Under the pieces are notes generated by a model, which made no database searches, was not told the origin of the DNA, and was given only the letters and a program-made list of their open reading frames with translations. A stretch of 56,119 bases of DNA, from the NCBI GenBank assembly GCA_017634065.1, contig JAGBOC010000028.1:1-56119 (forward strand), written 5' to 3'. Both the position numbers and the translations under genes were made by a program. This document shows, one piece after another, positions 1-3,610 of this stretch (position 1 is its first letter; the number at the start of each line of letters is the position of its first letter). The stretch comes from Lachnospiraceae bacterium. GTDB taxonomy: Bacteria; Bacillota; Clostridia; Lachnospirales; Lachnospiraceae.

Positions 1-191
1 GGTGTATTTCTACTTAATTCTATATAGAACTTGGTAATATTTCTAAGCACTGGCACTTGATAAAAAGTAATTATAGTTAATGCTAAGCCAATAATAATTG
101 CAAATATTATCCCTATAATTCCTATTTTAAGTGTTAATATTACTGCATTCTTATATAGTGGCAAAAATTTTATAATGAATTCATAATCCAT
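1..191 (-). CDS. Amino-acid ABC transporter permease (5' part, cut by window edge)
   Basis: The reading frame starts at ATG 191 and stays open to base 1, giving the first 63 residues. The N-terminus MDYEFIIKFLPLYKNAV, a long hydrophobic segment (residues about 17-45) and the following VPVLRNITKFYIELSRNT match the start of HisM/GlnP-type permeases of polar amino-acid ABC importers, which form the membrane channel. The start follows an intrinsic terminator at 222-252 and a cysteine-rich leader peptide at 281-361. That arrangement suggests a cystine or cysteine importer controlled by attenuation. The family call is fairly safe from the N-terminus; the substrate is inferred from the leader only. 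Confidence 0.75.
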   Translation of the reverse strand, partial: MDYEFIIKFLPLYKNAVILTLKIGIIGIIFAIIIGLALTIITFYQVPVLRNITKFYIELSRNT

Positions 192-221
192 ACTACATCT
201 ACATATCCTTTCACAATAAAA

Positions 222-252
222 AAATGCTACGGACTCATTTTCCGTAGCATTT
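222..252 (-). terminator. Intrinsic terminator in the permease leader (attenuator)
   Basis: A perfect 12-bp stem (222-233 with 241-252, 7-nt loop) is followed on the minus strand by seven T. It lies between the leader peptide stop (281) and the permease start (191), so it can stop transcription before the permease. Part of the leader peptide's cysteine-codon region (GTTGCAT) can pair 6 of 7 bases with ATGCTAC in the terminator's first arm, giving a possible antiterminator. Confidence 0.8.
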
Positions 253-280
253 AACAAATATTATTTATTAATTCATACCA

Positions 281-361
281 TTATTTGTATGCACACGAAA
301 AATGAATTGCTTTCATGCAACATACACAACAACTATTTAAATTTGCATATACATTTTTCAT
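281..361 (-). CDS. Cysteine-rich leader peptide (26 aa), candidate attenuator peptide
   Basis: This short frame reads MKNVYANLNSCCVCC followed by MKAIHFSCAYK. Five of its 26 residues are cysteine (11, 12, 14, 15 and 23), four of them clustered. A ribosome-binding site AGGT lies 7 nt upstream of the ATG, and a promoter (TTGCCA, 16 nt, TATAAT) ends about 17 nt upstream of it. The stop codon is 28 nt before the terminator hairpin. Ribosome stalling at Cys codons when charged tRNA-Cys is scarce would be expected to alter hairpin choice, as in trp or his attenuation. The reading frame and hairpin are seen; the regulation is inferred. Confidence 0.6.
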   Translation of the reverse strand: MKNVYANLNSCCVCCMKAIHFSCAYK

Positions 362-378
362 GTGAATTACCTACGATT

Positions 379-406
379 ATTATATCATTATACAAAATAA
401 TGGCAA
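379..406 (-). promoter_or_regulatory. Promoter of the leader peptide/permease transcript
   Basis: On the minus strand, -35 TTGCCA (401-406), a 16-nt spacer and -10 TATAAT (379-384). The predicted start is near 373, about 12 nt before the leader peptide ATG. Confidence 0.6.
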
Positions 407-447
407 TACTTTTTTCTCATTTAAGTTATATGTTTTATAACCACTTA

Positions 448-476
448 TTGGAAATATATGTAAACTATAGTATAAT
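448..476 (+). promoter_or_regulatory. Promoter of the rhodanese gene, leaderless arrangement
   Basis: -35 TTGGAA (448-453), 17-nt spacer, perfect -10 TATAAT (471-476). Only 6 nt separate the -10 box from ATG 483, so the transcript would begin at or next to the start codon. Confidence 0.65.
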
Positions 477-482
477 TTGTAT

Positions 483-761
483 ATGATAAAAAATATGCAA
501 AATATAGAGATAGGTATAAATGACTTTATAAATATCAAAGACAACGATGATGTTGTGGTTATTGATATGCGAAGTGATATTGAAAGGTCATACGGTAATA
601 TAAAAAATAGCATTCATCTTGATGGTGAAAATCTCAAAAATGACCCACCTCACGATGCAAATAAAAACTACATTATCTGTTGCTCTCGCGGAAAAACAAG
701 CTATGAAATAGCAAAAGAACTTAGAGACAGAGGATTTTCAAACTATTATAGTCTAAATTAA
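483..761 (+). CDS. Rhodanese-like domain protein (sulfurtransferase-like), short
   Basis: A 92-residue single-domain rhodanese. VVVIDMRSDIERSYGNIKNSIHL is the usual N-terminal signature (shown in part as VIDMRSDIERSYGNI), and CCSRGKTS forms the active-site loop with the persulfide cysteine. Such domains pass sulfane sulfur between partners in the cytoplasm. ATG 483 was chosen because it lies 6 nt after a perfect -10 box; ATG 495 is a possible alternative. The protein stops right after YYSLN, where relatives continue with a GG...W segment, so the C-terminus looks clipped. It is divergent from the putative cystine permease, which fits a sulfur theme. Confidence 0.65.
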   Translation: MIKNMQNIEIGINDFINIKDNDDVVVIDMRSDIERSYGNIKNSIHLDGENLKNDPPHDANKNYIICCSRGKTSYEIAKELRDRGFSNYYSLN

Positions 762-1115
762 CCTAAAAATCGTGCAACCCCTGCAACCCCAACTGCAACC
801 CTATGAACATTTAAAATATTAAAAATTGAAAAATATGCTGACATAGCAAAAACGAAATCCCCAATAATCAAAGGAATTTTTAGATACGGTATCATAGTAG
901 CGGTTACTTTGTTCACTACAACATAGATATTGATACAATAAAAAAACCGCTAATATAAAGCATATTAACGGTTTTAAATCATTTTCTACTTTTTTAACTG
1001 CTACCTTTTTGATAATTTTTACTTTTGCATTAGTCAAAAATCACACATTTTTGAAAAAGATGCAAAGTTTAACTAGATATATTGTTATAATAAATTAGAC
1101 TTAACCTTCTTTATT
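762..1115. other. Non-coding stretch with one terminator and short repeats
   Basis: No convincing gene. Bases 770-803 hold three close copies of a TGCAACCC-like word just after the clipped rhodanese. The terminator at 943-975 closes the leftward operon. A 72-codon minus frame at 819-1037 crosses that terminator and is not credible as a gene. Confidence 0.5.
943..975 (-). terminator. Terminator of the macrodomain-SirTM operon
   Basis: Stem 943-956 with 962-975 (7 bp, one mismatch, 6 bp), followed on the minus strand by a T run. It lies 140 nt after the last gene of the leftward operon. Confidence 0.65.
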
Positions 1116-1941: not shown

Positions 1942-2886
1942 TCATACGGAAACTTCTTCATTTAGTATTATTACATCATCTAACACTTTATCAATATCTT
2001 CATTGATAATTATTGACCTATCAAGTATCTCATCAGTGCAAAATGCTTCTTTATAATTAATACAGGCATAAGTTGCTTTATCATTTTCAAGAGTTAATTT
2101 CCAAAATGGATACTTGATAATTACTGGTGTATTCATACCAACACCCAATTCCAGTAGCAACAATGTTTGATTTTTTCTTTTATTCGTAAAATCACTATAT
2201 CTTATTGATGCTTCAACCCACCCCTCATCTTCAACAAAGTTATCATCTGCTCTTAAGTTCATAATCATATCAGAGCCATCATCAGAACATATTGGTATAA
2301 GTTCAGTTGGTATGCTCATACTTATATTGCCATTTATAGGTATATCATATATACCTTTTTCATTTTTCTTAAACCCCTGGGCTTCAAGCATTTTATAAAT
2401 TATCTCTTCATTATCATATGTTTTTCTATTTGTCTTGTTGACAGATTGAAAAAGTCCATAGTCTCCTTGAGTATAAAATAATCTTTTTTTATCAAACCCG
2501 GCTTTTTGAAATTGGTGGTCAACATTTGTTGTAATCACAAAATAATCTTTATCTTTAACAATACTTAATAATTTTTTGTAAGTATCTTTCAACGCATCTA
2601 AATATCTATTTACGTAAATGTTTCTACTCCAAAATGCCCACATAATTTCTTTAGTAGGAAATGGATAAAACCCTCCACTATAAAAATCCGTTATCCCATA
2701 TTCTTTTATAAAATCGAACATATATTTTTTAAATGTTTCGCCATTATAAATAAACCCAGCTGAAGTACTGAGTCCAGCTCCAGCACCTACAACTATTGCA
2801 TCTGCATTTTTAATTTTTTCCTTAAGGAGTTTAATATCTTCCAAGTAAGTTCTTGTAGATTTCGTAGTCACATTCTTTAAATACAT
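1942..2886 (-). CDS. SirTM: macrodomain-linked sirtuin, protein ADP-ribosyltransferase
   Basis: 314 residues of the class-M sirtuins. The NAD-binding loop is VVGAGAGLSTSAG (32-44) rather than the deacylase form ending SGIPDFR, and TTNVDHQFQKAGF (119-131) replaces TQNIDxLH; N121, D123 and H124 would line the active site. Known SirTMs transfer ADP-ribose to a partner protein, often a lipoylated GcvH-like carrier, and the macrodomain removes it. The start at ATG 2886 is supported by GAGGTGA 6 nt upstream. It lies inside the macrodomain gene, giving a 56-nt overlap and likely translational coupling. No GcvH-L or lipoate-ligase gene is visible in the window. Confidence 0.88.
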   Translation of the reverse strand: MYLKNVTTKSTRTYLEDIKLLKEKIKNADAIVVGAGAGLSTSAGFIYNGETFKKYMFDFIKEYGITDFYSGGFYPFPTKEIMWAFWSRNIYVNRYLDALKDTYKKLLSIVKDKDYFVITTNVDHQFQKAGFDKKRLFYTQGDYGLFQSVNKTNRKTYDNEEIIYKMLEAQGFKKNEKGIYDIPINGNISMSIPTELIPICSDDGSDMIMNLRADDNFVEDEGWVEASIRYSDFTNKRKNQTLLLLELGVGMNTPVIIKYPFWKLTLENDKATYACINYKEAFCTDEILDRSIIINEDIDKVLDDVIILNEEVSV

Positions 2887-3610
2887 TAAAAATCACCTCT
2901 AACTTCGGTTTAGAAGCTTTTTGATAATCTCGAACAGTATTTACTGCTATTTCTGCCGCTAGTTCATTTGGAAAACCAAAAATTCCTGTAGATATGCAAC
3001 AAAATGCAATGTTATCAAGTTTATTTTCACAAGCAACTTTTAGGCACGACATATAGCAAGACTTAAGCTCTTCCTTATTTTTACTTGTCACATTTCCACT
3101 TACTATCGTCCCTACTGTATGAATAACATATTTACTTGGCAAATTATATGCACTTGTAATCTTTGCACTACCAGTTTCTTCTTCATGACCTTGCTTTATC
3201 ATTATATCATTACAAACACTGCGTAACTGTACCCCAGCATAAGTATGTATGATGTTGTCGATACAATTATGACATGGTATATAGCAACCTGTCATTCCAC
3301 TATTTGCTGCATTTACTATCGCATCACATTTTAATGTTGTAATATCACCTTGCCATAAATATATTCCATCTTCAATCTCTGATAAATCTTTTATGTCAGT
3401 TATCCCTTTAAGTCTTGTTTCTTCTTGCAAATATTCATCTTGGATTTTCAAAAACTCTTCATCTATTTTCGCAGGAAGTCGCACATTAAACAAACTCCGA
3501 AGCAATCTCTTTTGTTCATCTTCATTACTTGGTATCTCTACATCACTATACTTGTTATTCTCACTTAATAAATATTTAATTAAATATATTCTTCTTTCAT
3601 CCTGATTCAT
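2831..3610 (-). CDS. Zinc-containing macrodomain protein, ADP-ribosyl hydrolase partner of SirTM
   Basis: 259 residues. After a helical N-terminal extension of about 80 residues, a macrodomain begins at LWQGDITTLKCDAIVNAANS. The Cys/His cluster GCYIPCHNCIDNIIHTYAG (108-126) is the zinc site of the macrodomains linked to SirTM. ISTGIFGFP is the ribose-phosphate loop. The family hydrolyses ADP-ribose from proteins modified by SirTM. It is the first gene of a leftward operon. A -10-like TATAGT ends 6 nt before the ATG and no ribosome-binding site is seen, so the mRNA may be leaderless. Confidence 0.88.
   Translation of the reverse strand: MNQDERRIYLIKYLLSENNKYSDVEIPSNEDEQKRLLRSLFNVRLPAKIDEEFLKIQDEYLQEETRLKGITDIKDLSEIEDGIYLWQGDITTLKCDAIVNAANSGMTGCYIPCHNCIDNIIHTYAGVQLRSVCNDIMIKQGHEEETGSAKITSAYNLPSKYVIHTVGTIVSGNVTSKNKEELKSCYMSCLKVACENKLDNIAFCCISTGIFGFPNELAAEIAVNTVRDYQKASKPKLEVIFNVFKECDYEIYKNLLGRY

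Follow-up and report, generated by a model that had tools for sequence, protein, structure and literature searches.

The cysteine attenuator that we propose here follows the logic of classical trp/his attenuation. It occurs in Clostridia, whose phylum is better known for T-boxes. Polycysteine-encoding leaderless open reading frames (ORFs) were reportedly described in mycobacteria by Canestrari et al. in 2020, whose title speaks of cysteine-responsive attenuation. For the mycobacterial polycysteine ORFs the term ‘translation attenuation’ is used (PMC13236596). Cys leader peptides are also on record from actinobacteria, with no conserved terminator hairpin found in Mycobacterium (PMC1262725). 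In the Rhodobacterales, the uORFC-8-2 motif is a predicted cysteine attenuator located upstream of cysS (PMC8632094). His leader peptides of hisS and hisZ occur in bacilli (PMC2965389), and a leucine-rich attenuator peptide occurs in Staphylococcus aureus (PMC5794164). Among the matches listed from the open-licence literature, none described a cysteine leader in Clostridia.

The window (the whole 56,119-nucleotide stretch of DNA analysed) belongs to a Lachnospiraceae assembly that is 87% complete in 33 contigs. Its first base is also the first base of its contig, and the nearest relatives with a name are MAGs of uncultured Lachnospiraceae. An earlier note on this DNA, made from the letters alone, described a 26-codon frame with a promoter, a ribosome-binding site and five Cys codons, four of them clustered at positions 11–15; all of these were re-found, on the minus strand (Table 1). 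It also gave the leader stop as 28 nt from the hairpin, and the hairpin as 30 nt from the permease ATG (A of the ATG = 191), and on measurement both distances are correct. The computed parts are those of an attenuator: a short leader ORF with a promoter and a ribosome-binding site, clustered codons for an amino acid linked to the downstream genes, and an intrinsic terminator between the leader and the first gene. This terminator is the sole terminator-like site that the scan found in positions 1..900, where shuffled sequences are expected to yield 0.3. The Shine–Dalgarno (SD) sequence is weak in the window; it is stronger in many of the other leaders discussed below, and none was found in one (L236). 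In three same-genus species the promoter region is identical at 40–43 of 45 nt, AGGT is present at the SD position, and the leader peptide has at most one substitution and one additional C-terminal residue.

Table 1. Features of the leader region and the start of the permease gene (positions in the window)
Feature	Position	Strand	Basis or remark
Amino-acid ABC permease, first 63 codons, cut by contig end	3..191	-	NCBIfam HEQRo_perm_3TM 1.7e-9
AAAGGA, likely permease ribosome-binding site, 14 nt 5' of ATG	206..211	-	by reading
Intrinsic terminator hairpin, 12 bp, T-rich tail from 221	222..252	-	scan; z-score -3.48
Segment 3, antiterminator partner of segment 2	233..258	-	duplex pairing tests
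Leader peptide ORF, 26 codons, MKNVYANLNSCCVCCMKAIHFSCAYK	281..361 (361..281)	-	Cys codons 11, 12, 14, 15, 23
Segment 2, post-Cys stretch, ends just 5' of stop codon	284..307	-	duplex pairing tests
Sensor Cys codons 11, 12, 14, 15 (TGT TGT GTA TGT TGC)	317..331	-	ORF reading
Segment 1, start-codon region, proposed protector helix	352..364	-	13 bp possible with 304..292
Shine-Dalgarno-like TAGGT of leader ORF, 7 nt 5' of ATG	369..373	-	by reading
Leader promoter, TTGCCA-16-TATAAT with extended -10 TG	379..406	-	consensus matches 11/12

Two further details of this region can be recorded. The fifth Cys codon (codon 23; 293–295, minus strand) falls within segment 2, where a stalled ribosome would cover that segment; the attenuator model leaves this codon unexplained, and a lone Cys some codons 3' of the Cys run is also present in several other leaders. 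The sequence ATGTAGATGTAG (193–204, minus strand), which separates the T-run from the ATG of the permease, contains two tandem start–stop pairs, and differs in the relatives.

Our preferred reading, to which we assign a probability of roughly 0.85, is that the window leader is a transcription attenuator which works through the ribosome, is specific for cysteine and controls an operon for a cysteine ABC importer. We infer that the leader is translated, that ribosomes stall in it, that the terminator terminates and that cysteine is the signal. When charged tRNA-Cys is scarce, a ribosome would stall at Cys codons 11–15, leaving segment 2 free to pair with segment 3, which takes in the 5' arm and loop of the terminator, the 6 nt preceding them and 1 nt of the 3' arm. 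With the 5' arm and loop so occupied, RNA polymerase would continue into the importer genes. With ample cysteine, the ribosome would proceed to the stop codon (283..281), directly after segment 2, and cover that segment, and the terminator would form. In a leader that is not translated, segment 2 would pair instead with the start-codon region (segment 1), and the terminator would form once again.

The antiterminator is not where the earlier note had placed it. That note had the Cys-codon region pair with the first arm of the terminator, and such pairing proved to be at chance level; it is the segment downstream (307..284) that pairs. We compared leaders with their own and with swapped terminators in 19 cases, the window standing for its genus, and L180, L198, L213, L230, L232, L233, L235 and L236 being left aside; the Cys cluster of L045 was set by hand to codons 10–12. 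Each leader contributed the 48 nt that follow its last clustered Cys codon; the partner was the 5' arm of the terminator, extended by 6 nt on its 5' side and by 8 nt on its 3' side. Pairing to the own arm and loop averaged -18.41 kcal/mol, versus -13.06 for swapped partners, and 0 of 20000 permutations did as well; omitting the 8 nt gave -14.52 versus -10.68, again with 0/20000. The Cys codons themselves show no preference for their own arm over swapped ones (10468/20000 permutations as good), and were rejected as the antiterminator strand; for the pre-Cys stretch the figure is 17415/20000. Because nine of the 19 terminators had been set by eye, we split the test: the ten found by scan gave 0/20000, and the nine set by eye gave 13/20000, or 292/20000 without the 8 nt.

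Individual leaders vary in strength. In mononucleotide shuffles the window and the same-genus leaders were equalled in 0 of 1000 cases, and six others in many: L038 in 274, L037 in 232, L049 in 343, L075 in 578, L096 in 191 and L189 in 636, so that pairing alone is unconvincing for these six. The window's antiterminator joins 307..284 with 258..233 by 23 pairs that are interrupted by a small mismatch and a bulge of 3 nt (-21.3 kcal/mol), and covers the terminator's loop together with its entire 5' arm; dinucleotide shuffles equalled it in 1/5000 and 2/5000 cases. Pairing between the start-codon region and segment 2 is also leader-specific (own -14.97 versus swapped -12.19; 1/20000 permutations, 19 leaders), the start-codon region overlapping the Cys run in some leaders. 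In the window it comprises a 13-bp helix inside a -21.1 kcal/mol duplex (10/5000 shuffles as good), which we propose to be the protector helix that an untranslated leader would be expected to form.

Folding was also modelled with the ribosome at fixed positions, using only the RNA that lies 3' of it and ends before the 3' arm of the terminator. In the window, sequestration of the 5' arm is 0.82 whichever of the four clustered Cys codons the ribosome occupies, and 0.17 when it is at the stop codon. With the ribosome at the first clustered Cys, 22 of 22 leaders show more sequestration than at the stop, by a narrow margin in L069 and L229; at the last clustered Cys, L049 and L069 reverse, and show no toggle. 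Shuffling the stretch before the arm, as a control for length, gave a mean of 0.53 over the 22 leaders versus 0.70 observed, which means that part of the difference between stall and stop is plain length, and weakens the toggle. The window compares well with its own shuffles (0.82 versus a mean of 0.49; 3/100 reach 0.82), and L037, L185, L049, L069 and L229 are not above their own shuffle means. With the ribosome at the stop, the terminator forms with a probability of 0.68–1.00 in the 22 of 30 leaders folded, whose terminators were found by scan (13) or set by eye (9). In full-length equilibrium folds with the ribosome at Cys, the terminator has a probability of 0.37–0.87 in the window, versus 0.96 at the stop, and it dominates in several other leaders (e.g. 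0.99 in L038). Given this competition, the switch would have to be kinetic, decided during transcription. An earlier fold model, which permitted pairing across the stalled ribosome, was rejected: it returned 0.64 for stall, 0.53 for stop and 0.64 for no ribosome in the window. As it gave no clear toggle and was then replaced, the toggle rests on the downstream-only model. By that model the window possesses an exclusive antiterminator, exposed by a stall and masked at the stop; other leaders are mixed.

The permease that follows the leader is truncated in the window, and its fragment scores under the HEQRo_perm_3TM cut-off. Intact orthologues, 97–98% identical over the fragment, are present in three same-genus genomes. 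In two of these (L031 and L033) the operon consists of permease, permease, ATPase, solute-binding protein and mnmA, and the order in the third (L032) agrees as far as the stretch examined. Among the relatives' proteins MnmA is above its NCBIfam cut-off and the general HEQRo_perm_3TM domain passes; the ATPase comes closest to TcyN and the permeases to models of ectoine and cystine permeases, none of these matches reaching its cut-off. The best PDB matches of the solute-binding protein are 2yjp (9.7e-70) and 1xt8 (1.5e-65), the latter of which we take to be the C. jejuni protein. 2YJP is the L-cysteine-binding protein NGO2014 (PMC7170509), and the C. jejuni and N. gonorrhoeae binding proteins bind cysteine selectively (PMC7373191). 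L-cysteine receptors are the best matches of the binding proteins of both L031 and L163, which identifies a CjaA/NGO2014-type importer in the relatives. The earlier note had looked to a full transporter beyond the window edge. One was identified in the same-genus relatives, and not in the window's own assembly, where the best match to the binding protein is only 33% identical and no close orthologue was found; for the window itself, then, the operon is deduced from its relatives. A leader for the CjaA/NGO2014 importer goes without mention in the available portions of PMC7373191 and PMC7170509.

Upstream, the earlier note placed a rhodanese gene beside the leader. A rhodanese ORF does adjoin it (477–761, plus strand; 94 aa), as a shortened form of a 390-aa rhodanese–TtcA-like protein (tRNA 2-thiocytidine type) found in two same-genus relatives. 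It seems not to belong to the system, being shortened in the window and replaced by a different upstream gene in one of the three same-genus relatives (L002/L032), and we rejected it as a component. In relatives, two tRNA-thiolation genes (the rhodanese–TtcA-like gene, and mnmA at the operon end) flank the cysteine importer. Elsewhere in the window, within 1942–3610 (minus strand), a 314-aa protein that appears sirtuin-like by eye matches nothing in Pfam or NCBIfam at E up to 0.001, and overlaps the end of a gene for a macrodomain protein-ADP-ribose hydrolase (NF003163, 1.6e-107).

Within the genus, conservation of the leader is weak evidence of selection, since the permease is equally unchanged (173–179 of 180 nt identical to the window). 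In the comparison with related genomes that the earlier note had proposed, the Cys codons proved to be almost unchanged in the genus and poly-Cys leaders to recur in other Clostridia. The permease was found at E up to 1e-50 in 71 of 397 family genomes; upstream DNA from 70 of these (G340 was left out), the window and three same-genus loci made up 74 loci. An ORF with at least four Cys in six residues lies within 500 nt upstream at 12 of the 74. Four of these 12 are the window and its near-identical same-genus kin, leaving 8 of 70 elsewhere. Over 40 rounds of dinucleotide shuffles the number averaged 0.10 of 74 and never exceeded 1, and on the antisense strand it was 0. Gly and Leu each reach the same four-in-six mark at 14/74 loci, the shuffle control applying to Cys; the Gly ORFs, checked at five of six residues, belong to the 3' portion of a metI-like gene located upstream, and no pattern was evident by eye among the Leu ORFs. 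We rejected two of the 12 (L092 and L102) by judgement and accepted ten. With longer stretches (800–1500 nt) where present, accepted leaders number 14 of 74, or 10 of 70 outside the genus: the window, L002–L004, L037, L038, L040, L045, L049, L058, L061, L069, L075 and L096. In L038 and L040 the leader precedes an operon that begins with the binding protein. At the other 60 of 74 loci no leader was accepted within the DNA examined. One reason is that many of these permeases lie behind another gene, so 60 loci should not be equated with 60 operons lacking a leader.

Other loci add to these. Among 80 named loci, 21 passed a loose Cys filter, of which ten are new leaders: L159, L160, L163, L171, L180, L185, L189 (from Faecalibacterium), L198, L211 and L213. 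L155 is the same as L037, and L147 and L148 are same-genus contigs; these were not recounted. Cultured bacteria with such a leader include Hominifimenecus microfluidus CLA-AA-H215 (L155) and Clostridium porci WCA-389-WT-23D1 (L213). L190 has a Cys cluster and no terminator was found there, and L149, L153, L161, L178, L191, L204 and L222 were excluded by eye. A pattern built from the Cys-Cys-Cys-Arg/Ser-Met and CGGGC elements shared by leaders matched 10 of 397 family genomes, and its reversed control none among the matches listed. For nine of the ten, the match falls within a poly-Cys ORF that precedes a sulfur-amino-acid gene: six are new leaders (L229, L230, L232, L233, L235 and L236) and three were known already; the tenth (L228) is false. 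A different pattern, TGYTGYTGYNNNATG (11 genomes), was rejected as too loose; 30 of its 77 matches were examined, and comprised five known leaders and a short ORF (L144). The total is 30 leaders, 26 of them outside the genus. Among 17 leaders chosen for Cys-Cys-Cys-Arg/Ser-Met, both TGT and TGC occur at every one of the Cys codons.

What follows these leaders is consistently related to sulfur amino acids. The first gene encodes an OAH/OAS sulfhydrylase (TIGR01326, above cut-off) in L159, L180 and L236, and one with the same N-terminus, judged by eye, in L213, L232 and L233. It encodes CysK (TIGR01139, above cut-off) in L185, and a cystathionine gamma-synthase/lyase-like enzyme (below cut-off) in L229. 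A MetQ-like methionine-binding lipoprotein gene (below cut-off) follows the poly-Cys leader of L230, which suggests cysteine control of methionine-type uptake. The remaining leaders precede an importer, as judged by eye and by the search that retrieved the loci. Several non-genus leaders (L040, L159, L163, L185 and others) have a CCTA-N-TAGG-like inverted repeat at or near the -35 element, within about 70 nt 5' of the leader ATG (e.g. CCTACTTGGTAGG in L159). This repeat is possibly a repressor operator, and hence a second layer of control; none was seen by eye at the window leader.

Three other explanations deserve consideration. The poly-Cys peptide might itself be the functional product (e.g. 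a small metal- or thiol-binding peptide), the terminator only setting expression ratios. CCxCC-like clusters could indeed bind metal, and the same-genus peptides hardly differ; yet across genera the peptides have little in common beyond the Cys run, save for an M-CCC-R-M-xx-SRA subgroup, and a peptide product would not predict post-Cys RNA matched to its own terminator arm, a match that no permutation equalled. We regard this explanation as very unlikely. Still less likely, in our estimation, is a ribosome-dependent attenuator that senses some other signal, for instance a drug, oxidised thiols or generally slowed translation. Drug-responsive leader attenuators do exist in Gram-positive bacteria (mef/mel, HflXr), but the genes after the pattern-found leaders are those of cysteine and methionine uptake and synthesis, and these genes were unselected, although the leaders themselves were found by their Cys runs.

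The least likely of the three is a chance short ORF before the plain terminator of some upstream transcript. Short Cys-containing ORFs do arise by chance: a pattern, TGYTGYNNNTGYTGY, has 14 matches in the window's own genome, and three of the 13 others lie in short ORFs, only the window leader having a convincing ORF by eye. A 77-codon minus-strand frame (613..380) also ends just upstream, although it is antisense to the rhodanese ORF. Against chance stand the excess of poly-Cys ORFs at permease loci over shuffles, the rarity of equally good antiterminators among shuffled sequences, and the recurrence of leaders before sulfur genes in other genera. We favour cysteine attenuation because poly-Cys leaders recur, terminators follow them, sulfur-amino-acid genes lie downstream and, over the leaders tested together, the post-Cys segment is matched to its own arm. 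On this comparative evidence, the classical amino-acid attenuation for cysteine that the earlier note put forward appears sound, and cysteine attenuators apparently recur across genera. Somewhat more probably than otherwise, they constitute a fast-evolving, previously undescribed class by which Lachnospiraceae and other Clostridia control a sulfur-amino-acid regulon (the cysteine importer, MetQ, CysK, OAH/OAS sulfhydrylase and a cystathionine enzyme), and in which each leader keeps its Cys run and re-invents a matched antiterminator–terminator pair.

If so, these leaders would provide a simple, testable account of cysteine sensing in some anaerobic Clostridia, and independent evidence for cysteine import by the CjaA-type ABC system. 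Import of this type has been called ‘likely, albeit unproven’, and the system is said to be lacking in most Clostridia (PMC7373191). No T-box riboswitch matched in the window, nor in positions 1..800 at E up to 1, and this candidate was rejected; T-boxes were likewise not found in 73 permease loci or 16 further leader loci. The only two Rfam hits were Clostridiales-1 in L067 and TwoAYGGAY in L056. Across the loci of all 30 leaders there was no leader-type Rfam 15 match at gathering scores, and a search for such leaders could therefore reveal cysteine-controlled genes. Attenuation of this kind is known already, and the cysteine leader of Clostridia is apparently new to Rfam and to the open-licence literature matches listed.

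Compared with the systems introduced at the outset, the Firmicutes leader-peptide attenuators (hisS/hisZ, S. aureus) share the same leader logic and serve other amino acids. The mycobacterial and actinobacterial leaders share runs of Cys codons before cysteine genes; unlike them, the leaders here are followed by terminators matched to the post-Cys segment. The uORFC-8-2 motif shares an upstream ORF with tandem Cys codons, an intrinsic terminator, and a proposed ribosome-mediated attenuation for cysteine supply (PMC8632094). We rejected membership of the window leader in that family, its first gene being an ABC permease and not cysS. uORFC-8-2 is alphaproteobacterial, precedes a cysteinyl-tRNA synthetase gene and has two Cys codons within the first stem (PMC8632094), whereas the leaders described here are clostridial, precede importer and biosynthesis genes, and have three to five clustered Cys codons with the antiterminator downstream of them.
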